DNA from: Rhodospirillaceae bacterium MC!
GTDB taxonomy: Bacteria; Pseudomonadota; Alphaproteobacteria; MC1
Assembly: GCA_002632265.1 (NCBI GenBank)
Contig: NQOV01000011.1
Span: 1-38,565 of the forward strand
Length of the DNA stretch: 38,565 nt
Direction: 5' to 3'
A program made the position numbers and the translations under genes. The notes under the pieces were generated by a model. The model saw only the letters and a program-made list of their open reading frames with translations, was not told the origin of the DNA and searched no databases. Shown here in pieces: positions 7,244 through 36,380 of this stretch. The first letter of the stretch is position 1. Every line of letters begins with the position of its first letter.

Positions 7244-7861
7244 TTATTCATCTTTCTGAAAAAAATCGGATATGCCAAAGGGCATTAGAATTGTAATAGC
7301 TGATAAATTAAAACGTAATTGTATGGAATTATCCACATATTTACTAGCGGAATAGTTTAAAAATTGTGTGCGTCTGAAACCCAGTGATAAGGAATAGAAA
7401 CTCACACCTATCCCCATTGATAGAGCGTTTGAGCCGTTACTTCCCATGCCGTATCCTGCCATGGTATACAGACCAAACCCGCCCCAACTAACGCTATCGC
7501 CTGTTCTGAATAGGTTTGTTGAAAGGTAAAGGTTGGCATTTTTTAGATGATTAGTGAAAATTTTTCCTTGGTTGTTTTTCATCTTGATGTTCTTATATTC
7601 AAATTCCAATCCTGGAACAATCGGCGAATACATATAATATCCTTGAGACGGCTCGTTACGGAGTGGGATATTGTAAAACATCGCCCCAAGGGAAATTTCA
7701 CTATTCACCGCTCCCCTATTGGGCGACATACCAAAACCAATATACGGATTACACAAGCCAACTAAGCGGTAATCCTTACTGGCCTTAGCCGTTGTATTTA
7801 TGAATAGACTAATCGTAAGAATAGTAAGGAGCGCTTTACATAAGAATATGATTGTTTTCAC
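7244..7861 (-). CDS. Small exported, probably outer-membrane protein (paralog 2)
   Basis: This 205-residue product starts with GTG (MKTIIFLCKALLTILTISLF...) and has a signal peptide ending near TAKA-S at about residue 27. The mature part carries NPYIGFGMS, SLGAMFYN, SPIVPGLEFEYKNIKMKNNQG, NLYLSTNLFRTGD and SNALSMGIGVSFYSLSL, all recognisable in the following paralog. Gly/aromatic alternation suggests about eight beta strands in an outer-membrane barrel. It lies 33 bp downstream of the DEAD-box helicase gene and 5 bp upstream of paralog 1, consistent with one minus-strand transcript or a tandem duplication added behind the helicase. Function unknown. Confidence 0.75.
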   Translation of the reverse strand: MKTIIFLCKALLTILTISLFINTTAKASKDYRLVGLCNPYIGFGMSPNRGAVNSEISLGAMFYNIPLRNEPSQGYYMYSPIVPGLEFEYKNIKMKNNQGKIFTNHLKNANLYLSTNLFRTGDSVSWGGFGLYTMAGYGMGSNGSNALSMGIGVSFYSLSLGFRRTQFLNYSASKYVDNSIQLRFNLSAITILMPFGISDFFQKDE

Positions 7862-7894
7862 AATAGTTTATACCTTGAAAAGATTAGGGGGAAT

Positions 7895-9487
7895 CTAGTC
7901 TTCGAAGTTTCTACGGCTACGGCGTTCGCCACCGCCACTTGATGAGCGACCACGTCCACCATCTCGACCGCCATCTCTTCCGCCATCTCGACCGCCATCT
8001 CTTCCGCCATCTCGACCGCCTGTGCGTCCACGACCGCCACGGCCGCCGTCTCTTCGGCTATCGCCACCACGTCCACCGTCTCGTCCACCGCCGAAAGATT
8101 CACGATCTCGATTGCGTGAACGGTTGCCGTCATCTCTTGAACGTCCACCGTCTCGGAAATTACGATCGTCGCCGTTATTATCGTTACGGCCGTTATCGCC
8201 GTCATTATTGCGATTGCGTTCATTACGATCTCTAAAACCATTTCCGCCACGTCTATTTTCCGAACGTCCGCCACGATTTCCGCCGTCTCTAGAACGTCCG
8301 CCACCATCACGACCACGACCGCCACCATTTCCACGGCCACCGCCACCGCCACCACGACCACCACGGCCGCCACGTTTTTTATTTAGTGGAATATATTTTT
8401 CCTTTTCCCCTGTAAGGAAATTTTGAATGTTACGCCATTTGATATCGTCATCACTATTGGAAATCATAGAAATGGCTGTACCGTCGGCATTTGCTCTTGC
8501 GGTTCTGCCGATTCTGTGGACGTAATCTTCAGGATTATCAGGTAGATCGTAGTTGATAACATAGGCAATATGGGGAATATCCAAACCACGAGCGGCGACA
8601 TCGGTGGCCACAAGAATATCAAACTTACCATTTCTAAAATTATTGGTAATGCGTGAGCGTTTAGTCTGACGTACGCCACCATGCAAGATATCAGATTTAT
8701 AACCTGCTTGTCTGATCTGTCCTTCAAGTTTTTCTACACTACGTTGAGTACGAGCGAAAATAATAATACTCCCGCCACATTCTTCTAGCAATTCGAAAAG
8801 AGTAGCATTCTTATTGCCCACATCTTTTAATATGCGTTGTTCGATTTTATCGGCAATGGCATTTAAACTTCCCACTTCAATACGTTCAGGATCAACTAAA
8901 TATCGAGCCGATACTTTAGTGATAGCCTTAGGTAAGGTAGCAGAAAATAACATAGTTTGACGACCGTCAGGAATTTCTGCTACGATGTCATCAATTTGAA
9001 TACCAAAACCCATATCCAACATTCTATCGGTTTCATCTAAGACAAGATACTTACAACTACTTAAATTCAACGTACCTTTTCTTATGTGATCGTTAATTCT
9101 GCCAGGTGTACCTACTATAATACGTGCATGCTGTTTTAGATCTCTGATTTGTCTTCCCATATCTTGACCGCCTATTAAAAGTGCGGTTCTTGTTTTACGA
9201 TCTGTAGATAGTAATTGACGTGCTAAAGCATTTATTTGTTGTGCTAATTCACGGCTTGGAGCTACAATTAAGGCAGATGTCTTGGGATTTTCTTGCAACT
9301 GGTGGATTATGGGAATTAAAAAAGCCCCTGTTTTCCCTGTACCAGTTTGTGCTGACGCTAAAACGTCCTTGCCTGCTAAGACCACTGGAATCGATTGCTC
9401 TTGAACTGGAGTAGGAGTCGTATAACTCATTTGTTCCATAGCATCTAGTAGTTTTTCACTTAAATCATAGTTAGTAAATGTACTCAA
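7895..9487 (-). CDS. rhlE: RhlE-like DEAD-box RNA helicase with long Arg/Gly-rich tail
   Basis: This 530-residue ATP-dependent RNA helicase has the Q motif (TPTPVQ, Q29), motif I AQTGTGKT (46-53), Ia PSRELA, Ib TPGR, motif II, SAT (III), a second RecA domain with FARTQRSVEKLEG and ATDVAARGLDIP, and motif VI HRIGRTAR. Motif II reads DETD (151-154) rather than DEAD. After about residue 375 the protein is almost only Arg, Gly, Asp, Asn and Ser, ending in DGGR tetrapeptide repeats encoded by a 12/24-bp DNA repeat near 7960-8020. Such RGG tails bind RNA and favour condensate formation. The start is TTG: the family N-terminus matches and the next Met (residue 17) lies just before the Q motif. Likely role: ribosome assembly or RNA decay. 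Confidence 0.9.
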   Translation of the reverse strand: MSTFTNYDLSEKLLDAMEQMSYTTPTPVQEQSIPVVLAGKDVLASAQTGTGKTGAFLIPIIHQLQENPKTSALIVAPSRELAQQINALARQLLSTDRKTRTALLIGGQDMGRQIRDLKQHARIIVGTPGRINDHIRKGTLNLSSCKYLVLDETDRMLDMGFGIQIDDIVAEIPDGRQTMLFSATLPKAITKVSARYLVDPERIEVGSLNAIADKIEQRILKDVGNKNATLFELLEECGGSIIIFARTQRSVEKLEGQIRQAGYKSDILHGGVRQTKRSRITNNFRNGKFDILVATDVAARGLDIPHIAYVINYDLPDNPEDYVHRIGRTARANADGTAISMISNSDDDIKWRNIQNFLTGEKEKYIPLNKKRGGRGGRGGGGGGRGNGGGRGRDGGGRSRDGGNRGGRSENRRGGNGFRDRNERNRNNDGDNGRNDNNGDDRNFRDGGRSRDDGNRSRNRDRESFGGGRDGGRGGDSRRDGGRGGRGRTGGRDGGRDGGRDGGRDGGRDGGRGRSSSGGGERRSRRNFED

Positions 9488-15191: not shown

Positions 15192-18071
15192 ATGAAAAAA
15201 ATCATTTCTATTTTACTAATAATAGTAACAACTTTAATTTCTCTTTTACTATTCTTTTATGTTATTGTTCAGCATGGTACGATTGGTAATAAGCAAGATA
15301 ATATTGTGCGTGCCAATCAACACACTCATCATGTTTTAAGACAATCTTCTAAAATCACGAGGGAACAGGCGTTAATAAAATCTATCAATAGACTTGCTCC
15401 ACAAAAAACTCCTTTGAAAATACCAGGGGATCTGTTAACAAACTTAGCTCATAATATTGAAATCAAAGTCCAACTCACCAGTAAAACGAAGAATAATTGT
15501 CATTTATTGGGTGCTGCTGGTAATTTGTGTTATTCGAGTAGGATATTCATACGCAACACAGGTAATTTTAACATTACTGGACACAATTGGAAATTATATC
15601 TTTATTCCATTCGTCGTATTTTGAGTGTTGATAATCTTTATGTTAATAAGTATCCTAGTATTTACAATTTAAACGGCATTCTAAACAATAAACCCCTAGA
15701 TACAGGCGGACGCTTTAATCTTAAATTTATCACAGGTGGATTGTATGAGATCACACCAACCAAACGTTTTAAGATGTTCGAGCGTCAATCAACTACCTTA
15801 ATAAATCTAACAACGGAATTCCAAAACATATCTTTAACCGATGTCGTACCTTGGTGGTTCTTTAGTGTGAACGGCAAACTTGCTCCAGTATCTAACATGA
15901 CGAATTCCAGTTCGCCTAATAACTATGTGATCAACACATCGACCATTCCCAAAAGTATCATGCCACATGCTCGTTATGCGACCAACAAAAAGTACGATAA
16001 AACCATAACAACCATTACAAAAAATTCCATTATTCCCACAGCGAAAGAAATAAAATACACCAGCACACAACCCACAGACATCCAAGGGGTGGCATTACAC
16101 ATCAAAGGATTATCGCCAGCAAGTATCAAAGCCATCAAGGCTTATTTAGCAGAACAGCACATTAAGATCTCAAAAAATGGCTTGCCAGTCTTTGGGGATG
16201 TTAATCCTGATCTTATGAGTAAAAACTATCAAGAAAAAGAAAGCTATAGCATAAACACCACCACAGAAAAAGCGACCATTCATGGCTATGATCAACAGGG
16301 GTTATTCTATGGTTTGATCTCATTTATTCAATCCATTGACGCTAAAAACTCAAGCTTTCTCACTAGCTCAATCCAAGATACTCCAAGATATCATCATCGA
16401 GAGCAACACATTGACATCGCACGTCATTTCCATTCTGTAGGGACTATAAAAAAGATGCTCCATGAAATGGCTTTCTTAAAATTAAACGTTTTACACTTGG
16501 TCATCGATAATGATGAAGCATGGCGTTTAGAGATCCCTGGCATTCCTGAATTAACAGACGTCGGCTCGAGAATCTGTCTAGATATGACAGAAAGCCAATG
16601 CCTATTGCCACAATTGGGAATTCCTTTACCCACATTTAATAAGGCTCAATATTACACCGCAGAGCAGTATAAGGATCTCATACGTTACGCCCACGCACAT
16701 TTTATTACGATCATTCCTGAAATTGATGTGCCTGCCCATGAGCGTGCGGCGGTGGTATCCATGGAAGCACGTTATAGAAAGTATAAGGATACCAATCCCA
16801 AACTTGCAAACGAATACCGCTTATTTGATCCTGAAGATAACACCAAAGTATTAACAGTACAATTTTATGGGGAAAATAGTTTTGTTAATCCTGCAGTAAA
16901 AGGTACAGCGAATTTTCTTGATAAGGTCATCGGCGAAATAACAAAAATGCACAGTGAGGCTGGCGTGCCTTTAGATGTGTTACATGTGGGGGGCGATACC
17001 GTATTTAATTTCATGTCAACCAACGCTTTTACCACCAAATATGAAGATAACTCAAAGGGATTATTAAATTACACCCTAAATAAACCGCCCCTTTCTTCAT
17101 CGCCACAAATTCAAAAGATTGTAGGATCTGATAACGCTGATGATATTTTATCCGTGTTCATTGATACCCTATCAGCGGCCACCAAAAAGCATAAGATTCC
17201 ACGCATTCAAGCTTGGAGCCAAGATAATAAGATCTTACGTATATATCATGAAAGCAAGGGTTTACAGGTAAATTTCTGGTTTCCCATGTCAAGTGATATC
17301 CAAGAGCGTCTATTGAATGTTGCCAACAATGGGGTAAAGATCATTATGTCCATGCCTGATTATACTAACTTTGATTTCAAATATGAAAACAATCTCGCCG
17401 AGCGTGGATATTATTGGGCAAGTAATAATAACAGTGTCTTTAAGCTATTTTCTTATATGCCTGATAATCTCCCTGCCAACGCCGAAGTGTTCGGAGCAAA
17501 AGACGGTAGCCCCATAAAAGTTATGGGACGTTTTGAGAATCCTAAAGTGTTCGGAATCTCTGCTCAATTGTGGAGTGAAACCTTATATACAGATCAAAAC
17601 ATTGATTATATGCTTTATCCAAGAATGGTAGCACTTGCACAAAAAGCATGGCATAAGAACAAATGGGAGCCTAAATACATCCCCCTACGCACCTATGAAA
17701 CAGGACGAACTCACATAGTGGATCAAAAGGCTTTACATGCGTCATTTAACAGATTTATCAACACTTTATACTATAAACTCCTACCTAGATACGACAAATT
17801 ACATATAAACTATCGAGTGCCACCACCAGGGGCGATGATTAGAAATAAGGTTTTATCTGCCAATTCGGAAATTCCCAACTTGAGCATAGAATATTCCTTT
17901 GATAAAATCATATGGCATAAATATATGGGCAAAACCGCCATGGAAAATCATACAACCGTATATTTAAGATCGCCAAACTTTTCAGGCGATCGCTACGGGC
18001 GAATCGTTACTGTAAAAGCAAATGATCCGAATTTTGATAGTAGTTTATATGAAATGTCGCCACAAGATTAA
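15192..18071 (+). CDS. GH20 beta-N-acetylhexosaminidase (chitobiase) homologue, catalytic Glu replaced
   Basis: This 959-residue protein has the full Serratia-type chitobiase layout: an N-terminal signal anchor (about 4-27), a CHB_HEX carbohydrate-binding-like domain (about 50-215), a GH20b domain (about 285-395), the GH20 TIM barrel from about 397 to 830 (HIDIARHFH, NDEAWRLEIPGIPELT, IIPEIDVPAHERAAVVSMEARY, IQAWSQD, AQLWSET), and a C-terminal domain. The family removes terminal GlcNAc from chitobiose or peptidoglycan sugars. The catalytic pair expected as HxGGDE reads HVGGDT (Asp602, Thr603), so the acid/base Glu is missing. A neighbouring active-site Tyr (DYVYMDF in Serratia) is Asn here. 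It may be inactive and bind sugar only. It is first in a cluster with the next genes. Confidence 0.88.
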   Translation: MKKIISILLIIVTTLISLLLFFYVIVQHGTIGNKQDNIVRANQHTHHVLRQSSKITREQALIKSINRLAPQKTPLKIPGDLLTNLAHNIEIKVQLTSKTKNNCHLLGAAGNLCYSSRIFIRNTGNFNITGHNWKLYLYSIRRILSVDNLYVNKYPSIYNLNGILNNKPLDTGGRFNLKFITGGLYEITPTKRFKMFERQSTTLINLTTEFQNISLTDVVPWWFFSVNGKLAPVSNMTNSSSPNNYVINTSTIPKSIMPHARYATNKKYDKTITTITKNSIIPTAKEIKYTSTQPTDIQGVALHIKGLSPASIKAIKAYLAEQHIKISKNGLPVFGDVNPDLMSKNYQEKESYSINTTTEKATIHGYDQQGLFYGLISFIQSIDAKNSSFLTSSIQDTPRYHHREQHIDIARHFHSVGTIKKMLHEMAFLKLNVLHLVIDNDEAWRLEIPGIPELTDVGSRICLDMTESQCLLPQLGIPLPTFNKAQYYTAEQYKDLIRYAHAHFITIIPEIDVPAHERAAVVSMEARYRKYKDTNPKLANEYRLFDPEDNTKVLTVQFYGENSFVNPAVKGTANFLDKVIGEITKMHSEAGVPLDVLHVGGDTVFNFMSTNAFTTKYEDNSKGLLNYTLNKPPLSSSPQIQKIVGSDNADDILSVFIDTLSAATKKHKIPRIQAWSQDNKILRIYHESKGLQVNFWFPMSSDIQERLLNVANNGVKIIMSMPDYTNFDFKYENNLAERGYYWASNNNSVFKLFSYMPDNLPANAEVFGAKDGSPIKVMGRFENPKVFGISAQLWSETLYTDQNIDYMLYPRMVALAQKAWHKNKWEPKYIPLRTYETGRTHIVDQKALHASFNRFINTLYYKLLPRYDKLHINYRVPPPGAMIRNKVLSANSEIPNLSIEYSFDKIIWHKYMGKTAMENHTTVYLRSPNFSGDRYGRIVTVKANDPNFDSSLYEMSPQD

Positions 18072-18073
18072 TC

Positions 18074-18697
18074 ATGATCTTAAATAAATTAATCCCACCA
18101 TTAACCGATCTTATGGAAGAATGCGAAAGTGCTATTTTTTGCATAAGTTCGGCATCTCATAAATCTAGCTTTTACGATTGCTTTATGAAACACAAACATA
18201 AGTTAAAAAATCTCGTTATCGGTACGCATAATTTTTCCACCACGCCAGATTTTTTAGCTAATATAAGAGATGTGGAAAATACTACCCTATTATTATCCAA
18301 TCCCAACTACATGAAAAAGGATCTCACATTTAATGTGAATTTATATATGTTCTTCATGCCTGATCATAGTTGGATACTCATTAATTCATCCACTGGCTTG
18401 GTTAGTAGCGAGAAAACTCGGAAAATTCTGCAAATGAATTCTCTTTTTGATTCCGAAGATCTCACAACTGACGACGCTAACCAGATAATGTCCACATTCC
18501 TTAGCTCGCTAAAAGAATACATAACCTTGGGCCAGGATCTTAAGGAGCAGAACATCAAGAAATATACAGCACTCTTTAAGAGTCATCATACCTATGTAAA
18601 CAATTACCGCTTAGAAGATCTTACCTCCCAAATGCTCGACACAAGCAAGAGCATTGCAAGCAAAACCCTACAAACCACAGAGAAAATAGAGAAATAA
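18074..18697 (+). CDS. Hypothetical protein between GH20 homologue and RNase G
   Basis: I do not recognise this 207-residue protein. It has no signal peptide or membrane helix. It mixes short hydrophobic strands (ESAIFCISSAS, LKNLVIGTHNF, VNLYMFFMPDHSWILINSS) with a C-terminal helical half (QIMSTFLSSLKEYI onward) rich in Lys, Ser and Thr. The start lies 2 bp after the GH20-homologue stop, and RNase G starts 1 bp after its own stop, so it is almost certainly translated from the same message. In many alphaproteobacteria the gene before RNase G is maf. This protein has similar length but no Maf signature and does not look like Maf. Confidence 0.75.
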   Translation: MILNKLIPPLTDLMEECESAIFCISSASHKSSFYDCFMKHKHKLKNLVIGTHNFSTTPDFLANIRDVENTTLLLSNPNYMKKDLTFNVNLYMFFMPDHSWILINSSTGLVSSEKTRKILQMNSLFDSEDLTTDDANQIMSTFLSSLKEYITLGQDLKEQNIKKYTALFKSHHTYVNNYRLEDLTSQMLDTSKSIASKTLQTTEKIEK

Positions 18698-18698
18698 T

Positions 18699-20081
18699 AT
18701 GCAAGAATTAATAATTCATAACTTCGGCGAGTTTACCCAAATGATCATGATAGAAGATGAAAATCTTAATTGGTATCTACCAAACTTCATCCATAAGGAA
18801 AATGCTCATGTGGGAGAAATCTATTGTGCTAGAATTCATACAATTGTAAAAGCCATTAACTCCGCATTCATTCATTTAGATAACGGAATCGAGGGATTTC
18901 TTCCCTTAAATAGTATCCCACAAGATAACGAGATCCTACATTATCCGAAAAAAATAACTCAAGGGCAAAAAGTACTCGTTCAAGTGAGAAAGGAAAAAAC
19001 TTCCGAAAAAATAGCCGAATTTAGTGCGAACATTCAACTAAAATCCGCCAATGGAGTACTTACACCCTTTAAATCTGGAATAAATGCCTCTAAATCCCTA
19101 AAGGATCAGGCAAGCGAAGAGTTAAAATTTAGTGTTAAGACAATTCTTGAAGATTATCCGCCAAATTTAGGCTTTGTCATTCGCTCATCGGCAAGCCACA
19201 TCAACGATGAAGATATGGCCATGGAAACATCCTTTCTTGCCGAATTATGGACGCAGATTTTAAGCAATTATCAAAATGCCAAAGATCCCATAAAATTATA
19301 CACCCTAGGAGCTGAATCTTCGGCTCTTATCTATCAGCTAAGCCAAAAGCCCGATCAGATAATTACAAATAATATAAGTATAGCAAACACTATTAAAAGT
19401 ATATGTTTAGGCTTGGGGTTTTATTTTGTTGAGAATATCACAACAGAATTACCAAATGTTAATCTAGTAAATAAGTATCATTTACAAGATCAAATTGATG
19501 AGCTATTCTCGCCGATTGTTAATCTGCCATCAGGGGGAAATATTGTTTTTCATCAAACAAAGGCTTTATGCCTGGTTGATGTTAACACCGCAAGCTCCAC
19601 CAATAATAATCAAGGCTTATCATTTTCCGACATCGCCACAAGAACCAATCTAGAAGCCACAGACGCACTAATAACCCACATCGCCCTACGTCAAATCGGC
19701 GGGCAAATTATCGTAGATTATCTTAAGGCAGGTAAAGGCATGCAAAAGCAAATCACCACAAGAATTTTAAAACTCAATAAATATCTCAAACTCCCCCTTA
19801 ATATCTTAGGATTTTCCAAGTTAGGATTACTAGAACTCACAAATAAACGTATGGGAAGCTCCATAGATGAACGTTGTTTATACAATCCCCAACCACGAAA
19901 AAATCTCTCATGGCAATCCTTTGATCTCCTACAACACGCCACCACCAGCAAACAGCAATCCCTAATCCTAACAAAATCCCAATACGACCACACCCACACC
20001 AACCTACAAACCACTCTCAACTTCACAAAAAAATATAACACAACCCTAACCATCACCCACACCAACGAAAACGAAAGCTAA
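18699..20081 (+). CDS. rng: Ribonuclease E/G family endoribonuclease
   Basis: At 460 residues this is the short RNase G form. It has an S1-like RNA-binding domain (GEIYCARIHTIVKAINSAFIHL, about 39-110) and the RNase E/G catalytic core. The metal-binding residues are Asp294 and Asn296 in LCLVDVNTAS and Asp340 in GGQIIVDYLKAG, followed by LELTNKRMGSSIDER. The CPxC zinc-link of classical RNase E/G is not seen; the segment after ERCLYNPQPRK runs into a polar tail. The enzyme processes rRNA and starts mRNA decay. It is preceded by one base of spacing and followed by yacG after 4 bp, the usual RNase G-YacG pair. The 3' end is markedly C-rich. Confidence 0.9.
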   Translation: MQELIIHNFGEFTQMIMIEDENLNWYLPNFIHKENAHVGEIYCARIHTIVKAINSAFIHLDNGIEGFLPLNSIPQDNEILHYPKKITQGQKVLVQVRKEKTSEKIAEFSANIQLKSANGVLTPFKSGINASKSLKDQASEELKFSVKTILEDYPPNLGFVIRSSASHINDEDMAMETSFLAELWTQILSNYQNAKDPIKLYTLGAESSALIYQLSQKPDQIITNNISIANTIKSICLGLGFYFVENITTELPNVNLVNKYHLQDQIDELFSPIVNLPSGGNIVFHQTKALCLVDVNTASSTNNNQGLSFSDIATRTNLEATDALITHIALRQIGGQIIVDYLKAGKGMQKQITTRILKLNKYLKLPLNILGFSKLGLLELTNKRMGSSIDERCLYNPQPRKNLSWQSFDLLQHATTSKQQSLILTKSQYDHTHTNLQTTLNFTKKYNTTLTITHTNENES

Positions 20082-32075: not shown

Positions 32076-33455
32076 TCAAAGATACTTTTTCAATCTTAAT
32101 ACTGGCTTTTCGATGATGTGCCATGAGAGTATTGCTAGGGCTAGGATGATTGCATAAAGGAAAATTAGCTCTATGGTTGGGTTGTGAAATATGCGGAAAA
32201 CTGGCAAAAACAATATGGGACAATGTATTAAATATATACCATAGCTATAATCTCCGTATTTTGTCCATAACTGGATTCTAAGAAGAGATCCGCAAGCTAT
32301 GGTTAAGTAGGGTATTATAAACATCTGACCTATGGTAAATGCCGTAGGGCTATTGCGTCCTATTATTAAAACAATAAACAAATAGGCAAAAATCACACAT
32401 AAAATCACATGCTTATTACATATAATGTGATCTTTATATAAATACATTAACGCACCAACCATAAAACACGGAAACAAACCGAAGAAAGCATAGTTATGAT
32501 TTTTCTCATGCAATGTATTCATTAATGTATTATCCGCCCCACTAAAATGAAAAATATTTGTGCCATGAAGATATAAAATTAAATCTAAAGCTATAAATAA
32601 ACAAGTTGCTATTAATATAAAAATTCTATTTTTATTAGATATTGTATATAATACTAGTAAAACTAAATAACTTAAAAATTCTATTTTTAAGGTCCAAGAT
32701 GAACCAAAATTAAATACTCCTATATTTACAACACCATTAAAAGCTTGCAAAAAAACTTGCCCTCTAAATGCTTGTATATTATGACCATAAAACATCCAAG
32801 CTACAATTACTACTGTAAGAAACAAAGGAAAAACCCTTAAAACTCTTTTTAATAAAAATTCTTTACTAGTTTTTGAATTGTCCAAACTTTGCACCATAAA
32901 AAAACCACTTATAGCAAAAAAACCATACACAGACAAACAACCAATATCATATGGAAATAAATTACTAAATAAGCTTATATTTAGCGAATGAAAAAGAAAA
33001 TAAACATGACACAAAAAAACACAAGTAGCCAAAATAAATCTCAACAAATTAAAACCATTATTTTTATAATCATAAACATCGGATAAAGTTTGGGGGTTAG
33101 TAGTGGAATCTTTTTTTAAAGTGAATAACCAAAATAGCAGACCGAAGAATATTATAAAAGACAAAATAATGTCAGGAACATAATGAGAGTGGCGGTCTCG
33201 GTATTCGAAGGCGAAGAGGATTGAGAATAAAAACAAACCACAAAATAACTTTTTAGTAGAATGCTTTAGTTGTTCTAAAAGGAATTGGTCGACGTAGATA
33301 TATACAGCGATGAAAATAATAGGCATAAAAAAAACTAGATTGCTTTTTAAGTGGGGTAGGTGGTGGATTTTGTGGTATAGGGAAAAGAATGAGATTATTG
33401 AAATTAATAACAATAGGCCATACTTTAGTTTGTATGATAAGATCTTGTTTAGCAT
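32076..33455 (-). CDS. Acyltransferase-3 (OafA-like) membrane protein, copy A
   Basis: This 459-residue multi-spanning inner-membrane protein has an unusual N-terminal block of about four membrane helices (1-130). An acyltransferase-3 domain follows: NLLRFILATCVFLCHVYFL (with the conserved Arg and His), GFFAISGFFMVQSLDNSKTSKEFLLKR, RVFPLF, SSWTLKIEFLSYLVLL (with the conserved Glu), GDYSYGIYLIHCPIL, and the C-terminus WHIIEKPVLRLKKYL. The family transfers acetyl or other acyl groups to sugars of lipopolysaccharide, capsule or peptidoglycan. It is the last of three tandem paralogs. Blocks of DNA are identical to copy B (32601-32767 against 34063-34229), pointing to gene conversion. Confidence 0.88.
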   Translation of the reverse strand: MLNKILSYKLKYGLLLLISIISFFSLYHKIHHLPHLKSNLVFFMPIIFIAVYIYVDQFLLEQLKHSTKKLFCGLFLFSILFAFEYRDRHSHYVPDIILSFIIFFGLLFWLFTLKKDSTTNPQTLSDVYDYKNNGFNLLRFILATCVFLCHVYFLFHSLNISLFSNLFPYDIGCLSVYGFFAISGFFMVQSLDNSKTSKEFLLKRVLRVFPLFLTVVIVAWMFYGHNIQAFRGQVFLQAFNGVVNIGVFNFGSSWTLKIEFLSYLVLLVLYTISNKNRIFILIATCLFIALDLILYLHGTNIFHFSGADNTLMNTLHEKNHNYAFFGLFPCFMVGALMYLYKDHIICNKHVILCVIFAYLFIVLIIGRNSPTAFTIGQMFIIPYLTIACGSLLRIQLWTKYGDYSYGIYLIHCPILFLPVFRIFHNPTIELIFLYAIILALAILSWHIIEKPVLRLKKYL

Positions 33456-33543
33456 AATTTTTTCCTGTGAGTATGTTTTAGAGATGATGTATTAAAACAT
33501 ATTCATAGTAGAAGATCAAGGATTATTTATAGTTAAACTTGTC

Positions 33544-34920
33544 TCAAAGATATCTTTTCAATCTTAATGCTGGCTTTTCAATGATGTGCCATGAGAGAAT
33601 TGCTAGGGCTAGGATGATTGCATAAAGGAAAATTAGCTCTATGGTTGGGTTGTGAAATATGCGGAAAATTGATAAGCCTAATACGGGAAAATGTATCAAA
33701 TATATACCGTAGCTATAATCTCCAAATTTTGTCCATAGTTGGATTTTAAGGAGAGATCCGCAAGCAATTACTAAAAAAGGTATTATAAATATTTGAAGAA
33801 TAGTGAATACAGTAGGGTTATTATTCCCTATTATTAAAATAATAAACAAATATGCTAGAAAAAAGCACAATACTACATGCTTGTTACATATAATTTTATC
33901 CTTATACAAATACATTAATGAGCCAACCATAAAGCAAGGAAATAAACCGAAGAAAGCGTAATTCCCCTTTCCATCATGCAATGTATTCATTAATGTCATC
34001 CTAGTATAATAGAAACTATTTGTACCATGAAGATATAAAATTAAATCTAAAGTTATAAAAGAACAAGTTGCTATTAATATAAAAATTCTATTTTTATTAG
34101 ATATTGTATATAATACTAGTAAAACTAAATAACTTAAAAATTCTATTTTTAAGGTCCAAGATGAACCAAAATTAAATACTCCTATATTTACAACACCATT
34201 AAAAGCTTGCAAAAAAACTTGCCCTCTAATTTCTTGTACATGATGACCATAAAAAATCCACCCTACTACTACTAGTGTAAGAAATAAAGGGAAAATTCTT
34301 AATACTCTTTTTAATAAGAATTCTTTACTAGTTTTTGAATTATCCAAACTTTGCACCATAAAAAAACCACTTATAGCAAAAAAACCATACACAGACAAAC
34401 GACCAATATCATATGGAACCAAAGTATTGATTAAGTCTAAATTCACTAAATTAGAAAAAAGACCTGCATGCAAAAGGAAAACCATAGAGGCTAATATAAA
34501 TCGCATAAGATTAAAACTATTATTTGTAAAATCGTATACATCTGATAAAGTTTGAGATTTAGTAATAGAATTTTTTTTAAAAGTAAAAATCCATATTAAC
34601 AAGCCAAACCCTATTACAAAAGACAATAAAACATCAGGGAAATAGTGAGAATGGCGAGATCGATATTCAGAAGCAAATACAATAGAAAACACAAATAAAC
34701 CTATCAACAATTTTCTAGTGGCTGTTGATAATTGTTCTAAAAGAAATTGATCTACATATATGTATACCGCTATTAATATTATAGGCATAATAAAAACTAA
34801 ATTCGTTATCACACTTGGCATATGATGAATTTTATGATATAAGGAGAAGAAAGATAGTACGGAAATAGTTAAAAACAAACTATACTTTAACTTTTGCTCT
34901 AAATAAGTGTTAAACATCAA
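33544..34920 (-). CDS. Acyltransferase-3 (OafA-like) membrane protein, copy B
   Basis: This 458-residue paralog has the same order of parts: an N-terminal extension of about four helices with YHKIHHMP and YVDQFLLEQL, NLMRFILASMVFLLHAGLF (Arg/His motif), FFAISGFFMVQSL, SSWTLKIEFLSYL, GDYSYGIYLIHFPVLG and SWHIIEKPALRLKRYL. It differs from copies A and C mainly in the loop after the His motif and in the region after FILIATC, places likely to face the substrate. The start is ATG at 34920 with AAGGAAA upstream; an in-frame Met2 follows. A C-terminal fragment nearly identical to this gene lies upstream of guaB (20399-20461). Confidence 0.88.
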   Translation of the reverse strand: MMFNTYLEQKLKYSLFLTISVLSFFSLYHKIHHMPSVITNLVFIMPIILIAVYIYVDQFLLEQLSTATRKLLIGLFVFSIVFASEYRSRHSHYFPDVLLSFVIGFGLLIWIFTFKKNSITKSQTLSDVYDFTNNSFNLMRFILASMVFLLHAGLFSNLVNLDLINTLVPYDIGRLSVYGFFAISGFFMVQSLDNSKTSKEFLLKRVLRIFPLFLTLVVVGWIFYGHHVQEIRGQVFLQAFNGVVNIGVFNFGSSWTLKIEFLSYLVLLVLYTISNKNRIFILIATCSFITLDLILYLHGTNSFYYTRMTLMNTLHDGKGNYAFFGLFPCFMVGSLMYLYKDKIICNKHVVLCFFLAYLFIILIIGNNNPTVFTILQIFIIPFLVIACGSLLKIQLWTKFGDYSYGIYLIHFPVLGLSIFRIFHNPTIELIFLYAIILALAILSWHIIEKPALRLKRYL

Positions 34921-35006
34921 TTTATTTCCTTGAATATGTAATGGCCTACTAATATGGTATAGCTCATTTAAACATACTAGTAATATAATAGCAAGAATTT
35001 TTTATG

Positions 35007-36380
35007 TTAAAGGTATCTTTTCAACTTTAATGCTTGTTTTTCTATGATGTGCCATGATAGAATAGCAAAAAATATTATAACAAAAGAAAGAAATACTAAT
35101 TCAATAGTAAGATTTTTAAATATACGAAACATAGGTAAAAATAATATGGGGTAATGTATTAAATATATACCATAGCTATAATCTCCATATTTAGTCCACA
35201 ATTTAATCTTAAATAAAGACCCGCAAGAGATTACTAAATAAGGTATTATCAATAATGGTACCATAGTAAACGCTATAGAGTTGTGATTGCCTATTATTAA
35301 AATAATAAATAAATAAGCTAGTAAAACACATAAAATCATATGTTTATTACATATAATTTTATCTTTGTATAAATACATTAACGAACCAATCATAAAACAA
35401 GGAAATAAACCAAAAAAAGAATAGTTAGTAGTGCCATCATGTAGGGAATTCATTAGTGTGTTGTTCCACGTAAAATATAAAACATCTGTACCATAAAGAT
35501 ATAACATTAAATCTAAAGCTATAAAAGAACAAGTTGCTATTAATATAAAAGTCTTATTTATATTAGATATGTTATATAAAATAAGCAAAAATAAATAACT
35601 TAAGAACTCTAACTTTAAAGTCCAAGAAGGACCAATTTTAAAAATTCCTATATTTAAAACTCCACTAAACGCTTGTAAAAAAACTTGCTCTCTAAGTTCT
35701 TGTATATGCTGACCATAAAAAAGCCACCCTATAATGACCAATGTAAAAAATAAAGGAAAAACCCTTAACACTCTTTTTAATAAGAATTCTTTACTAGTTT
35801 TCGAATTTTCTAAACTTTGTGCCATAAAAAAACCACTAATAACAAAAAAACTATAAACGGCAAAAATAGCAGAATTCCTTGGAAATAAAATATTGAATAA
35901 ATTAAAATTAATTTTTAACACGGCATCAGCATGCCCTAAAAAAACAAAAGTTGCTAAAATAAATCTTATTAAATTAAAGCCGTTATTTTTATGGTCATAA
36001 ATATCTGCTAATGTTTGGGATGTAATGGTGGAATCTTTTTTTAATGTGAAGAGCCAAAATAACAGACCGAAGAATATTATAAAAGACAAAATAATGTCAG
36101 GAACGTAATGGGAGTGGCGGTCTCGGTATTCAAAAGCGAAAAGGATTGAGAAAGAAAATAAGCCTAAGAATAGTTTTTTAGTGGTGGTTTTAAGTTGTTC
36201 TAAAAGAAATTGATCTACATAAACATATACAGCGATTAGGATCATAGGCATAAGAAAAACTAGATTGGTTCTTAGGTGGGGTAGGTGGTGGATTTTGTGG
36301 TATAGGGAGAAGAATGAGATTGTGGATATTATTATGAATAGGCCATACTTTAAGTTGTATGATAAGATCTTGTTTAGCAT
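35007..36380 (-). CDS. Acyltransferase-3 (OafA-like) membrane protein, copy C
   Basis: This 457-residue paralog is first in the tandem set. It contains NLIRFILATFVFLGHADAV, FFVISGFFMAQSLENSKTSKEFLLKR, GPSWTLKLEFLSYLFLL, GDYSYGIYLIHYPILF and SWHIIEKQALKLKRYL. Glu-Lys-Gln replaces Glu-Lys-Pro near the end. Its 5' part (about 36040-36380) is almost identical in DNA to that of copy A, whereas the middle and 3' parts are diverged, a mosaic pattern. The three genes are spaced by 86-88 bp. No glycosyltransferase or other surface-sugar gene is adjacent, so the acceptor is unknown. Confidence 0.88.
   Translation of the reverse strand: MLNKILSYNLKYGLFIIISTISFFSLYHKIHHLPHLRTNLVFLMPMILIAVYVYVDQFLLEQLKTTTKKLFLGLFSFSILFAFEYRDRHSHYVPDIILSFIIFFGLLFWLFTLKKDSTITSQTLADIYDHKNNGFNLIRFILATFVFLGHADAVLKINFNLFNILFPRNSAIFAVYSFFVISGFFMAQSLENSKTSKEFLLKRVLRVFPLFFTLVIIGWLFYGQHIQELREQVFLQAFSGVLNIGIFKIGPSWTLKLEFLSYLFLLILYNISNINKTFILIATCSFIALDLMLYLYGTDVLYFTWNNTLMNSLHDGTTNYSFFGLFPCFMIGSLMYLYKDKIICNKHMILCVLLAYLFIILIIGNHNSIAFTMVPLLIIPYLVISCGSLFKIKLWTKYGDYSYGIYLIHYPILFLPMFRIFKNLTIELVFLSFVIIFFAILSWHIIEKQALKLKRYL

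Follow-up and report, generated by a model that had tools for sequence, protein, structure and literature searches.

The locus and its neighbourhood

Within the window, a stretch of 38,565 nucleotides of Rhodospirillaceae bacterium MC! DNA that covers positions 1-38565 of its contig, one gene encodes a 959-residue protein related to bacterial chitobiases. Its reading frame, first described as uninterrupted over 959 codons, is indeed open throughout. The genome is 2.05 Mb in length and 95.5% complete, the window has a G + C content of 37%, and this protein is the only GH20 match that the genome contains. No 16S gene was found in the assembly; a DUF4167 match points to the Alphaproteobacteria. 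Positions of the gene, its diagnostic codons and the genes that follow it are collected in Table 1.

The 207-residue frame is closely flanked by the GH20 gene and a gene for a divergent RNase E/G-like protein, and the three may form an operon, although one with no evident functional link. The RNase E/G-like protein keeps both catalytic Asp positions (aligned with D303 and D346 of E. coli RNase E), lacks the CPxC zinc-link motif, and scores 206.9 against TIGR00757, which is below the cut-off of 325.95. Elsewhere in the window, three consecutive proteins of the acyltransferase-3 family, similar in size (459, 458, and 457 aa), are encoded in tandem at 32076-36380 on the minus strand. At 7858-9487, also on the minus strand, the mechanical list of open reading frames contains a frame for a 530-aa DEAD-box helicase (7895-9487) that overlaps a 171-aa frame on the same strand (7858-8373).

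Table 1. Features of the GH20 locus, with positions in the window.
Feature	Position	Strand	Basis
GH20 chitobiase-like putative pseudoenzyme, 959 aa	15192..18071	+	Pfam domains, alignment, AlphaFold2 model
N-terminal hydrophobic segment, aa 1-25, likely an uncleaved membrane anchor	15192..15266	+	hydropathy
Arg411 codon, kept (Serratia R349, which binds the -1 sugar at O3/O4)	16422..16424	+	alignment, PMC8098473
Asn440 codon (Serratia D378)	16509..16511	+	alignment
Asp602 codon, kept (Serratia D539, acetamide-polarising)	16995..16997	+	alignment
Thr603 codon ACC, in place of catalytic acid/base Glu540	16998..17000	+	alignment, codon comparison
Asn726 codon AAC, in place of -1 site Tyr669	17367..17369	+	alignment, codon comparison
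Trp742 codon, kept (Serratia W685, +1 subsite)	17415..17417	+	alignment, PMC8098473
Gln817 codon CAA, in place of invariant Glu760 (AER motif)	17640..17642	+	conserved-column count
207-aa protein without a known family, 2 bp after the GH20 gene	18074..18697	+	no Pfam hit above the cut-off
Divergent RNase E/G-like protein, 1 bp beyond the 207-aa gene	18699..20081	+	profile match

Domain architecture, predicted fold, and location

Four Pfam domains are recognized in the protein: CHB_HEX (aa 90-247), GH20b (279-396), the GH20 barrel (400-822), and CHB_HEX_C (864-937). The Glyco_hydro_20 match reaches 241.9 bits against a curated Pfam cut-off of 22.3, and the combination of the barrel with the three accessory domains is that of the chitobiase subtype. 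The best solved relative is the chitobiase of Serratia marcescens (1qba, 499 bits), a GH20 enzyme of the same four-domain architecture represented by PDB entries 1qba and 1qbb and by mutant entries (1c7s, D539A; 1c7t, E540D). An AlphaFold2 model of the 959 residues has a pLDDT of 83.4 and superimposes on 1c7t with a Z score of 52.6 and an rmsd of 1.9 Å over 831 residues; comparisons with the Serratia enzyme give Z scores of 50.8-52.6, with 34% identity over about 830 residues. Judged by sequence and predicted fold, the protein is a member of GH20, and its original description as a full-length chitobiase homologue is upheld by the complete Serratia domain set and the matching fold. The loop past D602 is modelled at low confidence (pLDDT of ∼60 for the block 601-610).

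The N-terminus forms one strong hydrophobic segment, where the 19-residue hydropathy maximum of 2.98 falls at residue 4. No lipobox Cys is found at the N-terminus, the only cysteines of the protein being 103, 113, 462, and 470. Because this segment occurs without a lipobox, the sequence suggests a membrane-anchored, periplasmic protein; the Serratia enzyme, in contrast, has a signal peptide that is cleaved. A low-confidence linker follows the segment to about aa 78, with pLDDT values below 50 at 28-55 and 68-78. The cysteines matching 505 and 578 of the Serratia enzyme have both been lost, and the pairs 103/113 and 462/470 have both been kept, a pattern that fits a folded, exported protein.

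Substitutions in the active site

Active-site positions were compared with those in 90 relatives, drawn from genome contigs, plasmid records, and a genome search, and in 11 GH20 proteins of the same class from a sample of 385 genomes, some of which overlap with the 90. The motif HVGGDT (residues 598-603) aligns without gaps to HFGGDE of the Serratia enzyme, confirming that the catalytic Asp-Glu pair of functional GH20 β-N-acetylhexosaminidases reads Asp602-Thr603 in this protein. Alignment and structural modelling, two of the checks proposed with the initial annotation, recovered both the replacement of E540 by Thr and the chitobiase fold. A second residue of functional enzymes, the -1 site Tyr669, is replaced by Asn726 (DYTNFDF, compared with DYVYMDF in Serratia). 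The initial annotation was right about this substitution; the residue, there called adjacent, is near the catalytic pair in the active site and not adjacent to it in sequence. Both positions are otherwise without exception, with Glu at the first and Tyr at the second in 90/90 relatives and 11/11 same-class proteins.

In the Serratia enzyme, sugar is contacted by R349, D539, E540, W616, W639, Y669, D671, F672, W737, and E739 in the -1 site, and by E540 and W685 in the +1 site (PMC8098473). With the exception of E540 and Y669, all of these are retained, as R411, D602, W675, W696, D728, F729, W794, E796, and W742. This contradicts an earlier suggestion that a +1-site Trp had been lost, since PMC8098473 places the +1 site at Trp685 and Glu540, and Trp685 survives as Trp742. 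What is missing after NFW is instead the counterpart of W644 (Ser701 here), a Trp that is present in 74 of the 90 relatives and is not among the listed sugar contacts. Asn440, at the position of D378, is not unique, as Asn also occurs there in 7/90 relatives, including an Aeromonas protein.

Wider comparison of conserved columns places these changes in context. Of the 25 columns that never vary among the 90 relatives, three are altered here (E540T, Y669N, and E760Q), and two of the three are active-site residues. Two divergent members of the set (L003 and L012) also differ at 2-3 columns that are otherwise invariant, though E540 and Y669 are never among them. By this alignment, the number of altered invariant columns is not unusual; which columns are altered is unusual. 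The protein keeps 55 of the 69 columns conserved at the 95% level, and its pocket residues are not retained clearly more often than conserved columns generally. On the basis of its catalytic residues, the protein cannot be counted among the functional hexosaminidases.

Relatives and maintenance of the gene

The branch leading to the protein is very long, at 2.98 compared with a median of 0.23, and its placement inside the chitobiase clade is uncertain. A single-protein scan of genome contigs found no relative, nor did a scan of viral contigs, and nothing closer than about 41% local identity was found in the class and phylum samples. No orthologue with Thr603 and Asn726 was found in the genome contigs, in the class and phylum samples, or in the order, for which the protein's own genome was the only one covered, so this state is known from one divergent sequence.

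An assembly or sequencing error at the catalytic codon could account for Thr603, and the sequence does come from one assembly only. We rejected this as highly improbable: ACC differs from GAA and GAG at all three bases, which a single read error cannot alter, no gaps interrupt the alignment of the flanking frame, and the active site carries a further substitution.

The codon change, which needs at least three substitutions, also bears on the idea that the gene was recently inactivated and is becoming a pseudogene. A long branch, a sole known copy, and a small, AT-rich genome would all be in keeping with such decay. Against this, a three-base change has accumulated at codon 603, yet no stop or frameshift is present in 959 codons. 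At 0.05 substitutions per site, the chance of a triple hit on one given codon is about 1e-4; a neutral simulation at this divergence produced a mean of 6.4 in-frame stops, with 0/300 replicates remaining open, giving an open frame a near-zero probability at the divergence needed. Because neutral drift brings stops first, the frame was presumably selected during most of the change at codon 603, unless the change itself was selected; a caveat is that the codon could have changed stepwise while the protein was otherwise under selection. Recent inactivation therefore seems improbable. That the gene is not simply decaying, as was initially proposed, is supported by the intact frame, the four domains, the predicted fold, the retained pocket residues, the paired cysteines, and the three-base codon change.

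A putative pseudoenzyme

We favour the interpretation that the protein is a periplasmic, probably membrane-anchored GH20 pseudoenzyme that has lost hydrolysis and most likely still holds terminal GlcNAc, and assign this a probability of roughly 0.55. It draws on the two lost residues and the retained pocket residues in the sequence, and on the fold class by prediction; inactivity, sugar binding, location, and role are what we infer. Replacement of the general acid/base Glu by Thr would abolish substrate-assisted hydrolysis, and replacement of the Tyr in contact with the -1 sugar at its reacting end would be a second lesion to catalysis. The remaining -1 pocket (the Arg, three Trp, Asp, Glu, Phe, and the polarising Asp), together with the +1 Trp, would capture a non-reducing terminal GlcNAc, which would sit on a chito-oligosaccharide or peptidoglycan fragment and be held there. 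The role may then be one of sensing, capture, or scaffolding.

Experiments on the GH20 GlcNAcase of Vibrio harveyi/campbellii (PDB 6ezr) are informative here, as its engineered E438A and E438Q variants mimic the acid/base loss. These are laboratory mutants of a shorter enzyme, about 24% identical to the protein described here. The E438A change reduces kcat from 28 to 0.11 per second (about 250-fold), with a Km of 128 compared with 92 µM; about 0.3% of efficiency is kept, a turnover defect in which Km is little altered. The D303N change lowers efficiency 55-fold. As the Vibrio acid/base mutant is nearly inactive and the Tyr has also been lost, these relatives indicate that the protein is very unlikely to hydrolyse sugars by the usual substrate-assisted mechanism. 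As the pocket residues are kept and the Km of E438A barely changes, binding of chitin or peptidoglycan sugars, initially raised as an option, is plausible.

Retaining glycosidases that lack the acid and act on activated aglycones exist, such as myrosinase. The protein might likewise still be an enzyme, either through another acid at the site or by using a substrate that needs no proton donor (an activated leaving group, an oxazoline, or a transfer reaction). The retained polarising Asp602 and, in the stretch that follows it, two acidic residues (E618 and D619) are compatible with this, but the concurrent loss of Tyr669 and the near-inactivity of both Asp and Glu mutants of the Vibrio enzyme make it an unlikely explanation. 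The different mechanism that was first offered as an option has gained no positive support.

Genome content is relevant to a further alternative, in which the GH20 fold serves a purely structural or protein-binding role, for example with a partner in the cell envelope, and no longer functions in binding sugar. No GH18 was found in the 95.5% complete genome, and the sole GH3 match is of the large, BglX-like type. NagZ was considered as a remaining hexosaminidase and rejected, since that single GH3 is not NagZ-like. With no GH18 found and the only GH3 not NagZ-like, a chitin-degrading pathway is not evident from the sequence. A PF01182 match could be 6-phosphogluconolactonase instead of NagB. 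The lack of a visible chitin pathway, the long branch, and a pocket retention that does not clearly exceed the conserved-column background all favour a scaffold; retention of the pocket Trp residues, Arg, Asp, Glu, and polarising Asp all together argues against one, and we regard it as a rather unlikely role.

Comparison with known systems and wider significance

The Serratia chitobiase shares its architecture, predicted fold, and -1 and +1 contacts with the protein, two contacts excepted. It is distinguished by Glu540, Tyr669, and Glu760, which are Thr, Asn, and Gln here, and by the cysteine pair 505/578, which is absent here. GH18 provides well-known cases of a sugar pocket kept after catalysis was lost, and its lectins such as CHI3L1/YKL-40 have a glycosidase fold, are non-enzymatic, and bind chitin (PMC7490424). 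They offer a functional analogy only, being eukaryotic members of another GH family with a documented function, whereas binding by the protein described here is putative. None of the open-access papers searched was found to describe a GH20 pseudoenzyme that occurs naturally.

A more specific and tentative proposal is that the putative pseudoenzyme is a naturally evolved, membrane-anchored bacterial GH20 lectin, which would sense or sequester GlcNAc-terminated glycans, either host chito-oligosaccharides or the cell's own muropeptides. The protein represents a rare form within an enzyme family that is well known. If it is indeed a pseudoenzyme that binds sugar, automatic annotation of this GH20 gene as a β-hexosaminidase would be wrong, and GH20 would have taken the same route from enzyme to binder in a bacterium.
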